Assembly (NCBI RefSeq): GCF_024623785.1
Contig: NZ_JANKBZ010000017.1
Location: forward strand, 124,001 to 188,000
Reading direction: 5' to 3'
Source of the DNA: Archangium lipolyticum
GTDB taxonomy: Bacteria > Myxococcota > Myxococcia > Myxococcales > Myxococcaceae
Length of the DNA stretch: 64,000 bases
Shown here: positions 33,938 to 39,565 of the stretch, in pieces
Layout: each line of letters opens with the position of its first letter
How positions within the stretch are numbered: the first letter of the stretch is position 1
Made by a program: the position numbers and the translations under genes
The notes under the pieces: model-generated
What the model saw: only the letters and a program-made list of their open reading frames with translations
What the model was told of the DNA's origin: nothing
Database searches by the model: none

Positions 33938-34022
33938 CTCCGTGCGTCGCCTTGCGCCGACGCCTGCTCCTCCCCATGGTCTGACCCATGCGACGCGCGA
34001 GGGTCCATCCAGGGGAGGGGCC

Positions 34023-36263
34023 TTGTTAGCCGCTCCCTCTCTGCGCCCGCCGTTCCGGTTCTCCTTCCTGTCCAGACGCCGCCGCTACCCGGTCCGGCGT
34101 CAGGTCGAGGAGTCCGACTGCGGCCCGGCCTGTCTGGAGATGATCTCCGCCTTTCATGGGGCGGAGCACGCCCAGGCCGTGCTTCGCGAGTTCCTGCACG
34201 TGCGGGCTCCGGGCACCACCCTGTTGGACATCGCCCGGGTGGCGGAGCGGATGGGGTTCCGCGCTCGCGGTGTCCACGTGGAGGACCCGGAGGACCTGAC
34301 CGACGAGGAGGGCCGGGCCCTGCTGCCCGCCATCGCCCACTGGGAGGGCAACCACTTCGTCGTCCTCTATGAGGTGGATGCCCGCCACGCCGTCGTGGGG
34401 GACCCCGCCCAGGGTCTGCGGCGAATCCCTCGCGCCGAGCTGCCCCGGCACTGGAACGGTGTCCTCCTGCTGCTCGAGCCCACCGCGGTCCTCCATGCGC
34501 CTCGCGTGGGGCCGGACGTGCCCGTGCGCCGCTCCTCCGCCCTGCGCCGCTTCGGCCAGGGACTGCTGCGCTACCGCTCACTGCTGGCGCAGATCGTCCT
34601 CGCCACGCTCCTCCTTCAGGGTCTGGCGCTCGCGCAGCCCTTCCTCGTCCAGGGGCTGGTGGACAAGGCCGTGGGCCAGCGGAACGTGTCCCTGCTCACC
34701 GCCATCGGCGTGGGTCTGGCCGTGCTGTTGCTCGGGCAGGTGGCCGTCACCGCCGCCCGGGGTGCGGCCCTCTTCCTGCTCTCCGGCAGCTACTCGATGC
34801 TGCTGCTCACCCGCTTCTGGAAGCAGCTGTTGTCCCTGCCCCTGTCCTTCTTCGCCCGGCGCCACCGGGGAGATCTGCTCAAGCGCCTCGAGGACCACCA
34901 GCGCATCCGCCGCGTCCTCCAGGGCGCCGCCGCCTCCGTGCTGCTCGACCTCTTCCTGCTCGGGGGCTACGGCGTGGTGCTGCTCCTCTACGACACCACC
35001 GTCTTCCTCTTCTTCCTCGGCAGCGCGCTCCTCTACGCGGGCTGGACGCTGGTGCTGATGCCGCGCCGCGGCCGCCTCGACGCCGAGCGCTTCCGCGTGG
35101 GCTCCGAGGCCAGCCGCCTGGAGCTCCAGATGATCGGCGGCATCCAGACCCTCAAGGCCTCCGCCGCCGAGCCCCAGATGCGCGCCGCCTGGGAGCGTCT
35201 CCAGGCCCGTGACTTCGCCGCGAGCCGCCGCCTCTGGCTCCTCGACACCCTCCACCAGGGCGGCACCCTCTTCATCAACCAGGCCATGTACCTGGGCATC
35301 CTCCTCTACGAGGCCTGGCTCGTCCTCCAGGGGCGCCTGTCACTCGGCCAGCTCGTGGCCACCCTCGCCATCCTCGCCCTCGTGCTCACCCCGTTGCAGA
35401 ACCTCGTCTCCTTCCTGCACGACCTCCAGGACGTGGCCCTCTCCCTGCGCCGCGTGGACGTCATCTACGAGGCCGAGCCCGAGCCCTCCGGTCCCGCGAC
35501 ACCCGGCGCCGCCGCGATGTCCGCGCACGCTCCGGAGATCCGCCTCGAGCACGTCTCCTTCCGCTACGGCCCGCCCGACGCGCCTCCCATCCTGGACGAC
35601 GTGAGCTTCACCCTCCCCGCCGGGAAGATGACCGCCATCGTGGGCCGCTCCGGCGCCGGGAAGACGACGCTCGCCCACCTGCTGCACGGCCTCTACCGTC
35701 CTCAACAGGGACGCATCCTCTACGACGGTGTCCCGCTCGAGGCGCTCGACTCCGCGCACCTGCGCCGCTCGGTGGCCTACGTCTTCCAGAAGACGGACAT
35801 CTTCGACGGCACGCTCGCGGAGAACATCGCCCTGGGCGACGAGCGGCCCGACCCCGAGCGGCTGCTGCACGCCGCCCGCACCGCGTGCCTGGATGATCTG
35901 CTCGCGCTGCCCAACGGCCTGTCCACCCGCATTGGCGAGTCCGGCATCCGCCTCTCCGGCGGCGAGGAACAGCGCCTTCAGCTCGCGCGCGCCATCTACC
36001 GCAACCCCCGCGTGCTCTTCCTCGACGAGGCCACGAGCCACCTGGATGCCTCCACCGAGCGCGCCATCACCCTCTCGCTCCAGCGCGAGTCGGCCGGGCG
36101 CACCGTGGTGGTGGTGGCGCACCGGCTCTCCACCGTGCGCCGGGCGGACCTCATCGTCGTGCTCGAGCGCGGGCGGGTGGTGGAGCAGGGCACTCACGAG
36201 GAGTTGCTGGCTCGCGAGGGCGGGCACTACCGCGCGCTCGTGGAGAACCAGATGGAGGGTTGA
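34023..36263 (+). CDS. Peptidase C39-containing peptide ABC exporter
   Basis: This bifunctional exporter cuts double-glycine leaders and exports the peptide. I place the start at TTG 34023, after GGGGAGGGG, giving 746 residues; a GTG at 33942 would add 27. The C39 peptidase domain has Cys33 in ESDCGPACLEMI with the preceding Gln, His in GNHFVVLYEVD and Asp in VVGDPAQG, so it should be active. Membrane helices occupy ~175-440. The ATPase has Walker A GRSGAGKTTLAHLLHGL, Q-loop FQKTDIFDG, signature LSGGEEQRLQLARAI and Walker B RVLFLDEATSHLD. It converges with a precursor gene bearing a double-glycine leader 230 bp away, its probable substrate. Confidence 0.9.
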   Translation: MLAAPSLRPPFRFSFLSRRRRYPVRRQVEESDCGPACLEMISAFHGAEHAQAVLREFLHVRAPGTTLLDIARVAERMGFRARGVHVEDPEDLTDEEGRALLPAIAHWEGNHFVVLYEVDARHAVVGDPAQGLRRIPRAELPRHWNGVLLLLEPTAVLHAPRVGPDVPVRRSSALRRFGQGLLRYRSLLAQIVLATLLLQGLALAQPFLVQGLVDKAVGQRNVSLLTAIGVGLAVLLLGQVAVTAARGAALFLLSGSYSMLLLTRFWKQLLSLPLSFFARRHRGDLLKRLEDHQRIRRVLQGAAASVLLDLFLLGGYGVVLLLYDTTVFLFFLGSALLYAGWTLVLMPRRGRLDAERFRVGSEASRLELQMIGGIQTLKASAAEPQMRAAWERLQARDFAASRRLWLLDTLHQGGTLFINQAMYLGILLYEAWLVLQGRLSLGQLVATLAILALVLTPLQNLVSFLHDLQDVALSLRRVDVIYEAEPEPSGPATPGAAAMSAHAPEIRLEHVSFRYGPPDAPPILDDVSFTLPAGKMTAIVGRSGAGKTTLAHLLHGLYRPQQGRILYDGVPLEALDSAHLRRSVAYVFQKTDIFDGTLAENIALGDERPDPERLLHAARTACLDDLLALPNGLSTRIGESGIRLSGGEEQRLQLARAIYRNPRVLFLDEATSHLDASTERAITLSLQRESAGRTVVVVAHRLSTVRRADLIVVLERGRVVEQGTHEELLAREGGHYRALVENQMEG

Positions 36264-36492: not shown

Positions 36493-36663
36493 CTAACAGG
36501 CCTGGCACCCTGGGGGCTCTTCGCCGCAGGCGAAGGTGGTGATGTCCGGGCACTGCGGTTTCGCCGATGGTGGCGCCGCTCCGGTGCCTCCTTCGATGCG
36601 GGCCAGGTCCTGCACGAACAGCTCCTTGATCTTCTTGACCTTCTTCTCCTTCTTCTGCTCCAT
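36493..36663 (-). CDS. Four-cysteine RiPP precursor peptide with double-Gly leader
   Basis: This 56-residue peptide starts at ATG 36663, with GGAGGA four bases upstream; an in-frame ATG at 36675 has no such site. The leader MEQKKEKKVKKIKELFVQDL followed by ARIEGG matches the double-glycine leader pattern (EL-x3-EL/DL-x2-I-x-GG) cut by C39 peptidases. The predicted 30-residue core after GG starts TGAAPPSAKPQCPDITTFAC and continues GEEPPGCQAC. It contains four Cys, two adjacent Thr, and Asp/Glu and Lys side chains that an ATP-grasp ligase could link. Neighbours are an active C39 exporter, an ATP-grasp enzyme and a VKOR-thioredoxin fusion. No close known family was recognised. Confidence 0.8.
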   Translation of the reverse strand: MEQKKEKKVKKIKELFVQDLARIEGGTGAAPPSAKPQCPDITTFACGEEPPGCQAC

Positions 36664-36839
36664 GACGTCCTCCATGAGGTCAAGGCCCCGGAAGCCTGCC
36701 TCCCGGGGTCAACAGGCCCAGGGGGGCCTGCCTCAGAGAGAACGGTCGTCGGCTGGTCTCCACTCCGAGAGATGTCTGGAGGGTTTCCTCGTCCAGCCGC
36801 TCGGTCCTCGTGATGACGGGCGTCAGGCGGCTCGTGGCT

Positions 36840-37796
36840 TCAGGAGGCAGCCGAGCGGGCGCTCCTGGCCAATGTCCGGACGAGGTGGCCGAGGATGTCC
36901 GTGCCCGCCCGCGCGTCGAAGCCGAGGAACATCGGCGACGCGTTGAGCTCCAGGAAGCGCAGCGTGCCCCGGGCATCACGCTTGAGGTCCATCCCCGTCC
37001 AGCGCAGGCCCACCACCTCCGTGGCCCTCAGGCACTGACGCGCCACCTCGGGCGGCAGCTCGAAGGCGTCGATGCGCTCCTCGTTCTGCCGGAAGTCGAG
37101 CGCGCTCGAGAGGATGCGCAGGCTCGCGATGATCTTCCCGTCGAGCACGTAGACGCGCACGTCCTCCCCGGGCATCAGCTCCTGGAAGGTGACGGGCGCG
37201 GACTCCAGCGCGCCGAGCCGTGCGTCGGTGAGATCCTCGGGCCCCAGCTCCCGGGTGGCCGCGCCGCCCTCGACGGGCTTGTACGCCACGCGCTGGCCCG
37301 CGGCGAAGCGGCGCACCGCCTCCGGCTCGTTCGTCCAGAGTGTCCTCGGCACCGGTAGCCCCGCGTGCGCCAGGAGCGCGAGCTGCACCGGCTTGGGCGT
37401 GCGCCAGTCCGCGGCGAGCGGGTTGTAGATGGGCACGCCCATCGCCTCCCAGCGGCCCACGAGCCCCCGGAGCAGTGTCGTCTTCTCCCGGAAGGCCACG
37501 AGCGTGGTGCGCCAGTCCTCTTCCATGGCCTCCCGTGCGTCCACGCCGAAGGTGATCGGATGGGAGTGGTAGCCGCGCAGGTAGACGGCGCCGGGCCGTT
37601 CGAGGCGCTGGCCGTCCAGGGAGATGCTCTCGAGGTCATCCGTCAGCGACAGGCGCGTCTCCTGCGGGAAGGCCAGGGTGTCCACCACGATGGCCTGTAC
37701 TCCCTCCGCTTCGAGCCGCCGTGCCACCTCCGAGACGTGCGCGTCATCGCGGGAGCCCACGAGCAGCACGGGGCGGGTCTTCGAGCGGGTCGTCAT
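36840..37796 (-). CDS. RimK-like ATP-grasp ligase (putative peptide-modifying)
   Basis: This 318-residue protein has an N-terminal preATP-grasp domain (RPVLLVGSRDDAHVSEVARR, PGAVYLRGYHSHPIT). The ATP-grasp core follows: TPKPVQLALLAHAGLPVPRT, the ATP-Lys strand RVAYKPVEGGAATRELG, PVTFQELMPGEDVRVYVLDG, and the metal-binding GTLRFLELNASPMFLGFD (Glu/Asn). The start overlaps the fusion-gene stop (ATGA). Family members attach amino acids or form amide/ester cross-links in peptides (as in graspetides) or in cofactors. With a precursor peptide 176 bp downstream on the same strand, peptide modification is the simplest inference, but the reaction is unknown. Confidence 0.75.
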   Translation of the reverse strand: MTTRSKTRPVLLVGSRDDAHVSEVARRLEAEGVQAIVVDTLAFPQETRLSLTDDLESISLDGQRLERPGAVYLRGYHSHPITFGVDAREAMEEDWRTTLVAFREKTTLLRGLVGRWEAMGVPIYNPLAADWRTPKPVQLALLAHAGLPVPRTLWTNEPEAVRRFAAGQRVAYKPVEGGAATRELGPEDLTDARLGALESAPVTFQELMPGEDVRVYVLDGKIIASLRILSSALDFRQNEERIDAFELPPEVARQCLRATEVVGLRWTGMDLKRDARGTLRFLELNASPMFLGFDARAGTDILGHLVRTLARSARSAAS

Positions 37797-39565
37797 GGGG
37801 CAGGCGCTCCTTCCTGGGTGGAACCGGCGCGGACCGCCGGGGGCGTGAGGAGTTCGAGTACGGCCGACTGGTCCAGCCAGGTCGCGACGTGGGCCAGGGG
37901 CGCCTCGCAGGGGTGGCCATCGAGGAACAAGGAGGGAAGGCCCCGGGCGTGGCGCCGCTTGAGCTCCGCGGCCGCGCGCACCCGGGCTCGGGCGGTGTCC
38001 CGTACGTCCTCGAGCTCCGCGCTGTCCCGCTCCGCATAGGCGGCCACGAGTGCCAGCGGCTCCCCGGCCCGTCGCAGGCGCGCGTAGTCCTGTTTCGCCG
38101 CGCGGAAGAGCTGGAGGAAGACCGGGCCACCCCAGGCCACTCCGGCCGCCGCGAGCGCCTCGCATGCCGCCTCGTCTCTCGGGTCGTCCGGATCCATCGG
38201 CGCGAGGGCGAGGTGGACGCGCACCTGCTCTCCGTGCCGAGCCACCAGTGCCTCTACTTCCTCCAAGACGGGGCCGCAGTGGCCACAGGCGGGGTGCGCG
38301 AGCACGACGAGCACGTGTGGTGCATCCGCCTCTCCCAGCCTCGGGCCGAGGGACGCACCCTCCAGCGGCAGCCTCGGTTCCATCGAGAGCCGCGCGAGCG
38401 TGGCCAGTGGCGAGTCCAGCAATCGCGCGTGCTCCCGGAGGCGGTGGGCGTCCTCCTCTCCGGTGGAGAGGTGGGGAACCGTGGAGGACAGCAGCAACCC
38501 GAGGAAGAGCAGCAGCAGGAGGGTGGCGGGGAGCCACCCGGGAGGCGGGACGGGCCGCGCGGGCCACATGCCGAAGAGGAAGAGGGCCGCGCCGGTGAAG
38601 TCCACCGTGTGCACCACCATGCAGAGGGTGCAGAAGCGCCGCATCCGCACCTGTGCCACCACCAGCAGCGCGGAGAGGGGCAGGGTGGGGAGGAAGGCCG
38701 CGCCAACGAGCCACGCGGGCGCCGGTCCGCCTCCGAGCGCGGTGGTGCAGAGCAGCAGCAGCAGGGCGCCGAACCAGGCCGTGCCCAGTCCGGCCAGCGG
38801 CACTCCCGCGGGGCGGGCCCATTCGGAGAGCAGGACGCTCTCGCAGTCGATGGGGCCTCCACTTCCGCAGAGCAGGGAGGCCTTGCCGCCCCGTGTCCAC
38901 GAGAGCGCCGCCAGCGCCGCCACGAGTCCCACTCCCGAGAGCACGGCCAGCCCCGCGGTGGGGAGGCGCAACCCGGCGGGCTGGGCGAGGACGGCCAGCA
39001 CGAGCAGCACCCCCAGCAACGTGGCCAGTCCCACGCGCATCCAGGGCGAGGCGGAGGGCCCGGCGAGGGACGTGCCCGGCTTCCACTCCTCGAGGAGCCA
39101 TTCCCGCGCACGGTGCCGGAGGTAGCCCGGCTCGGGGTCGCCAGCGCCGCTCCGCTCCAGGAAGACCACCACTCCCGACCAGAGCGTGGCGAGCGTGTCA
39201 CGCTCCACCTCGCGGCTACCCTGGATGCTGTCCCAGATGCGGAAGGAGCCGGGAGCCCCGGCGGTGGGCGGGCTCACCGCCTCGAGCAGCCCGAAGCCGG
39301 TCCGTGCTCCGGACTGGAAATGGAGGAGGGCGGGCAACTCGTCCGCGTCCAGCTCGTCGAGCGTCTCCAGGTCGCCCTGGCCCGCCGTGGCCTTCAGCCC
39401 GAGCGAGGAGGCCCCTTGCACCAGTGCCAGCAGGGAGCCCGGCCGCTCGTGGTGGCCGAGAACCTGACGCACGTGCGTGCGGGAGTAGCGCAGGCCCAGG
39501 CGCCGGGCCGCTTCGGCGAGGACCTCCGCCGGACCATCACTGGGGACACCGGGAGCACGGAGCAT
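37793..39565 (-). CDS. C39-like / VKOR / thioredoxin fusion oxidoreductase
   Basis: This 590-residue membrane protein has three parts. Residues ~10-150 resemble a C39 peptidase domain without its catalytic Cys (GSLLALVQGASSLGLKATAG, ELPALLHFQSGARTGFGLLE, FRIWDSIQGS); such degenerate domains bind leader peptides. Residues ~170-390 are a vitamin K epoxide reductase with several membrane helices, a loop Cys pair C233/C241 (LCGSGGPIDCESVLL) and active-site CTLC (C312/C315). Residues ~400-590 are a thioredoxin/DsbA-like domain with CGHC (C427/C430). It should make disulfides outside the cytoplasm using quinone. The neighbouring four-Cys peptide is an obvious candidate substrate. The start ATG 39565 lacks a strong ribosome site. 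Confidence 0.82.
   Translation of the reverse strand: MLRAPGVPSDGPAEVLAEAARRLGLRYSRTHVRQVLGHHERPGSLLALVQGASSLGLKATAGQGDLETLDELDADELPALLHFQSGARTGFGLLEAVSPPTAGAPGSFRIWDSIQGSREVERDTLATLWSGVVVFLERSGAGDPEPGYLRHRAREWLLEEWKPGTSLAGPSASPWMRVGLATLLGVLLVLAVLAQPAGLRLPTAGLAVLSGVGLVAALAALSWTRGGKASLLCGSGGPIDCESVLLSEWARPAGVPLAGLGTAWFGALLLLLCTTALGGGPAPAWLVGAAFLPTLPLSALLVVAQVRMRRFCTLCMVVHTVDFTGAALFLFGMWPARPVPPPGWLPATLLLLLFLGLLLSSTVPHLSTGEEDAHRLREHARLLDSPLATLARLSMEPRLPLEGASLGPRLGEADAPHVLVVLAHPACGHCGPVLEEVEALVARHGEQVRVHLALAPMDPDDPRDEAACEALAAAGVAWGGPVFLQLFRAAKQDYARLRRAGEPLALVAAYAERDSAELEDVRDTARARVRAAAELKRRHARGLPSLFLDGHPCEAPLAHVATWLDQSAVLELLTPPAVRAGSTQEGAPAP

Follow-up and report, generated by a model that had tools for sequence, protein, structure and literature searches.

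We identified a short gene in Archangium lipolyticum whose product is most probably (roughly 0.78) the precursor of a disulfide-bearing graspetide of the plesiocin type (group 2). The gene lies in a 64,000-nt stretch of DNA (hereafter the window) from a large genome of 12.6 Mb, which belongs to the same GTDB family as Myxococcus. The assignment as a single-repeat plesiocin-type precursor was based on a TTxxxxEE core, a PsnB-like synthetase, and a profile match to the plesiocin precursor PsnA2 and to no other molecule. The PsnB-type synthetase, the TTxxxxEE core, and the PsnA2-like leader place the system in group 2, as far as these features can stand for groups that the literature defines by similarity network. 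Because plesiocin requires four repeated core motifs and only one was present, plesiocin itself was rejected and the peptide was regarded as its relative. The features of the locus were as follows:

33942..36263, plus strand: C39-peptidase ABC exporter (PCAT) with an intact DCGPACL motif; PF03412, PF00664, and PF00005
36264..36434, plus strand: 56-aa protein, apparently with a single membrane helix; its gene immediately follows that of the exporter
36493..36663, minus strand (read 36663..36493): precursor peptide gene, 56 aa plus stop
36663-36586 (leader, 26 residues) and 36585-36496 (core, 30 residues), minus strand: the two parts of the precursor
36517..36540, minus strand: core motif T42 T43 F A C G E48 E49 (TTxxxxEE), two nested Thr-Glu omega-esters predicted
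36669..36673, minus strand: Shine-Dalgarno-like GGAGG before the second ATG, read from the sequence
36840..37796, minus strand: PsnB-like ATP-grasp graspetide synthetase, 318 aa, upstream of the precursor gene on the same strand
37793..39565, minus strand: fusion protein (C39-like/VKOR/DsbA), 590 aa, its stop overlapping the synthetase start (ATGA)

Read from the second ATG of the minus strand, the peptide consists of the leader MEQKKEKKVKKIKELFVQDLARIEGG and the core TGAAPPSAKPQCPDITTFACGEEPPGCQAC (26 + 30 residues) with four cysteines (C38, C46, C53, and C56), and it exists as the first-pass annotation had quoted it; the plus-strand reading of 36493-36663 bore no relation to that peptide. 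The GGAGG, which overlaps the first ATG, is placed 5 nt upstream of the second, the codon at which the nearest relatives also start (MEPKKEKK in L052 and MAQEKEKK in L053). The second ATG was therefore taken as the start, in agreement with the earlier choice. The proposal of a 26-residue double-glycine leader also held, with the hydrophobic residues I-4, L-7, and L-12 before GG (read from the sequence) and a C39 exporter nearby. Searches of Pfam and NCBIfam with the peptide returned no match.

TTFACGEE was the sole TTxxxxEE in the six-frame translation of the 64-kb window, and its counterpart in PsnA2 is TTLAIGEE. When a profile of 8 close precursors was searched against the whole PDB (E up to 10), one molecule was matched, namely residues 14-38 of PsnA2 (E = 0.009), a plesiocin precursor fragment from the same crystals as PsnB (7drm); the alignment paired LFIEDLGKVTGGKGGPYTTLAIGEE with LFVQDLARIEGG...TTFACGEE. 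Searched as a single sequence, the peptide had no hit in the PDB. The synthetase was closest to chain A of 7drm (PsnB, the plesiocin synthetase; E = 1.1e-96, residues 9-309), with the next solved relative at E = 3e-13. It matched RimK (PF08443) in Pfam, and its best NCBIfam model, TIGR04187, scored below the curated cut-off. The peptide had been described as a novel precursor type, a claim contradicted by its plesiocin TTxxxxEE motif, its PsnA2 leader motif, and the PsnB-like synthetase directly upstream. For identification, the Thr/Glu pattern is as relevant a lead as the cysteines. As a whole, the earlier interpretation was partly supported: the reading as a secreted, double-glycine, four-cysteine precursor was right, and the kinship with plesiocin was missed.

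The exporter gene is convergent with the precursor and synthetase genes and lies outside their operon. It matched PF03412 (E = 9e-32) and, below the cut-off, TIGR03796 (E = 5.5e-144), and its true start is probably downstream of 33942. A C39 exporter adjoins many relatives of the cluster, and the 56-aa single-helix protein is kept beside it in L052, L047, L059, and L001-L005. The cluster is flanked by housekeeping genes for thymidine kinase, two phosphoribosyltransferases, YjbR, and DapF.

Clear precursor homologues (E < 1e-4) were detected in 21 of 195 Myxococcota genomes, all from the window's own family, and one further homologue was found in Sorangium cellulosum So ce26 (L006). Across the 33 aligned precursors, the window copy included, LF, AR, and the first G of GG in the leader were unchanged (33/33); T43, A45, E48, and E49 in the core were likewise invariant, and T42 was kept in 32. 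The leader type common to all was IKELFV[QK]DLAR[IV]xG and the core TTxA[CL]xEE. Type I precursors (CPxxTTxACGEExxGCxxC) came from the window, two congeners, Sorangium, and four Myxococcus; GG, TTxACGEE, and all four cysteines were kept in 8/8 with a spacer of variable length, the very pattern that the first-pass annotation had named as support for a secreted, processed product. Type II comprised PPNTTLACCEEADDGCC and close variants, and type III TTQACCEEKNDPCC and close variants. Type IV (TT[FLY]AL[AG]EESG) has no cysteine, and its GG is replaced by GK or GD. The precursor of L058, STLACGEEPGGC, has two cysteines, and a further Cys-less set (VTTMMVGEE, without GG) adjoins Myxococcus synthetases. 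Judging from these alignments, the cysteines are a variable addition, since relatives with the same leader show other Cys patterns or none. The synthetase tree grouped the window with L052, L053, and Cys-less type IV loci, with weak support for deep forks and very long branches for distant rows; because the tree joins these loci, we consider that cysteine content changed over their history.

The Cys-less precursors of L064, L068, L075, and L076 carry EGK instead of EGG, so that Cys loss coincides with GG loss there. Within about 9 kb of these four loci, no exporter of the window-exporter family was found. Cleavage at Gly-Lys by C39 is known for one glycocin (PMC12457901).

We then compared the distribution of precursors and synthetases. 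Close synthetases, defined by E < 1e-130, occurred in 26 of the 195 Myxococcota genomes, and precursors were present in 21 of these 26 vs none of the 169 others (Fisher 8e-24, a value that ignores shared ancestry). Among the relatives in Myxococcus/Pyxidicoccus, whose synthetases are identical to those of named species, one genome can hold as many as four precursors of types I-III. Around the orphan precursors of Myxococcus, no synthetase or exporter was found within about 9 kb, even at E 10 and apart from noise, and each such genome has one close synthetase located elsewhere. Their neighbours were CBS-domain, dynamin-like GTPase, amidohydrolase, and ArsA-type genes, which we took as unrelated to them. 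Because these Cys-type precursors lie far from the single close synthetase of the genome, the simplest reading of the gene layout is that they would be modified in trans by that enzyme. If true, this would explain products missed by cluster-based mining.

The fusion protein comprises a C39-peptidase fold (aa 10-142), a VKOR domain (aa 206-326), and a DsbA-type thioredoxin fold (aa 384-571, with CGHC). Pfam matched VKOR (9.5e-14), Thioredoxin_4, and, weakly, C39; the VKOR part was assigned by the Pfam match alone, as the fold comparison barely covered that stretch. The AlphaFold model, built with six sequences, had a mean pLDDT of 73 and a pTM of 0.38, and the mutual arrangement of the domains was unreliable because of the latter. 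In structure comparison, residues 10-142 of the model matched the PCAT1 peptidase (Z 15.8) as well as 6mpz, the structure of a C39 domain together with its leader; residues 384-571 matched DsbA2 (Z 16.6). The catalytic C39 cysteine (DCGxAC motif) was absent from its place in 6/6 fusion homologues, and the C39-like domain is accordingly classed, by its residues, as catalytically dead. Unchanged in 6/6 were C233, C241, C312, and C315 of the VKOR part and C427 and C430 of the DsbA part.

The fusion adjoins the synthetase at 5/6 Cys-type loci vs 0/15 Cys-less loci, counts that come from few genomes and ignore shared ancestry. The sixth homologue belongs to G116, where it lies before a canonical grasp-with-spasm cluster (L110 5056-9391) with a TIGR04192 ligase and a TIGR04193 SPASM protein, both above the curated cut-offs; the precursor there has GG and two core cysteines (KFQTLENEELEAVTGG followed by KAAPAGC...SGECG). 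The strongest case for a leader-guided disulfide oxidase comes from the sharing of the fusion by two different Cys-bearing graspetide types. We infer that the fusion, bound to the leader, oxidises the core first and that the adjacent C39 transporter then exports the peptide. Such an enzyme, if true, would be an unusual one for RiPP tailoring. No fusion was found in the genomes with Myxococcus Cys-type precursors (types I, II, and III), G116 excepted, or in the genome of L053; disulfides would thus need another oxidant there or would not form.

The analysis establishes that the gene is real, the family to which each protein belongs, and the conservation, co-occurrence, and gene order; the pathway that follows is a prediction. 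By homology, the PsnB-like ATP-grasp enzyme would bind the leader motif ELFVQDLARI and join Thr42/Thr43 to Glu48/Glu49 through two nested omega-esters, giving a bicyclic hairpin with the loop F-A-C-G. The dead C39-like domain of the fusion may hold the double-glycine leader while the VKOR and DsbA domains oxidise C38, C46, C53, and C56 to two disulfides, which would tie the hairpin to both tails. The C39 exporter would then cleave after Gly-Gly and export the 30-residue product. This product would likely be secreted and, by analogy with plesiocin, inhibit a protease, for which the loop would serve as bait; this is the weakest step of the proposal. Plesiocin and microviridins inhibit serine proteases, and two recently studied graspetides of other groups gave no growth inhibition in disk assays (PMC13097080). 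If true, two esters plus disulfides on one hairpin would yield a small, very stable scaffold for inhibiting proteases. We give an even chance to a wider proposition: that omega-esters and disulfides together lock the members of a graspetide subclass, that a dedicated oxidase recognises their leader through its dead C39 domain, and that one Myxococcus synthetase serves several precursors dispersed over the chromosome among unrelated genes.

Several other explanations were weighed against a plesiocin-type graspetide with disulfides. It is possible but unlikely that the product is a plesiocin-type graspetide in which the cysteines bind metal, stay thiols, or act as thioester donors. Cysteine number and position vary (CxxC-like ends, CC pairs, or none), the VKOR fusion is absent from most Cys-type genomes, and some graspetide synthetases take other donors, forming non-native thioesters (PMC13097080). 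However, the donor Thr pair is kept in the Cys types, which argues that the cysteines do not substitute for Thr donors, and the VKOR-DsbA fusion adjoins most Cys-bearing synthetase loci and no Cys-less ones. The peptide could instead be a bacteriocin or pheromone of the double-glycine kind that carries only disulfides, with the ATP-grasp enzyme modifying something else; a leader suited to C39 export and Myxococcus homologues far from any synthetase would fit this reading. We regard it as very improbable, because TT and EE are the best-conserved core positions, leader and core match PsnA2, and orphan precursors are confined to genomes with a synthetase.

The ORF is short and had no Pfam or NCBIfam match, as might be expected of a spurious ORF opposite other sequence, but this explanation was refuted by the homologues and retains almost no weight: 33 aligned rows from related myxobacteria keep the frame, and changes between near pairs are mostly synonymous. 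The pN/pS values were well below 1 for window/L052 (0.10/0.41) and L055/L056 (0.04/0.28), consistent with mostly purifying selection on the precursor between near pairs; for some pairs of this very short gene they were less clear, e.g., window/L053 (0.15/0.19). Other RiPP classes were rejected, in line with that annotation's exclusion of lanthipeptides and microviridins. For lanthipeptide-, sactipeptide-, or thiopeptide-type products, no LanM/LanB/LanC, radical SAM, or YcaO domain was found in the genes scanned (about 31.4-46.7 kb). For a microviridin (group 1), there was no PFFARFL-type leader, TxKxPSD core, or MvdC+MvdD pair, and the NCBIfam MvdC/MvdD scores were 68 and 55 bits vs cut-offs of 475 and 425.

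We compared the disulfide-bearing plesiocin-type system with known ones. With plesiocin (PsnA2/PsnB of Plesiocystis pacifica; group 2), it shares the synthetase family, the TTxxxxEE core, the double-glycine site, and the leader motif LF[IV]xDL..[IV]xGG. It differs in its single core motif (plesiocin has four), its four conserved cysteines, the C39-like/VKOR/DsbA fusion beside the synthetase, and an exporter that is convergent instead of in line; C39/NHLM-type exporters accompany group 2 graspetides (PMC13097080), as in the window cluster. ATP-grasp side-chain macrocyclisation and a double-glycine leader are common to microviridin/MvdC-MvdD, whereas the PFFAR[FL]L leader and KYPSD core are absent here and one synthetase replaces two. 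Grasp-with-spasm (TIGR04192/TIGR04193) has, in G116, the same fusion type and a Cys-bearing GG precursor, but a different synthetase subfamily, a SPASM partner, and a different core. Glycocins with disulfides are also Cys-rich RiPPs with a C39 exporter and thioredoxin-like proteins in the cluster (PMC12457901), whereas the present cluster has no glycosyltransferase and its predicted cross-links are omega-esters and disulfides. Very few graspetides with a secondary modification are known, and such modifications are described as understudied (PMC13097080). We found no report of a VKOR fusion or dedicated disulfide enzyme in graspetides, in a comparison that lay outside the group 2 lists of Lee et al. 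2020 and Ramesh et al. 2021, nor a description of a plesiocin-like hairpin combined with four conserved cysteines and an adjoining disulfide-enzyme candidate.

The genome of the window (C8) contains a second plesiocin-like cluster (L047 4437-10060) with a type II precursor, TTLACCEEANDGCC, and an exporter; its synthetase and its fusion protein are 73% and 59% identical to those of the window, respectively. Beside it lies a microviridin-like cluster (L047 11639-14131) with two MvdC/MvdD-like ligases, in which the precursor combines three KYPSD cores with a PFFARLLEEQ leader. Myxococcus also has distant PsnB-like loci, at about 34% identity (L102 593-1286, L103 609-1284, and L104 2630-3227), where each single precursor carries 12 to 15 TTxxxxEE repeats vs the four of plesiocin.
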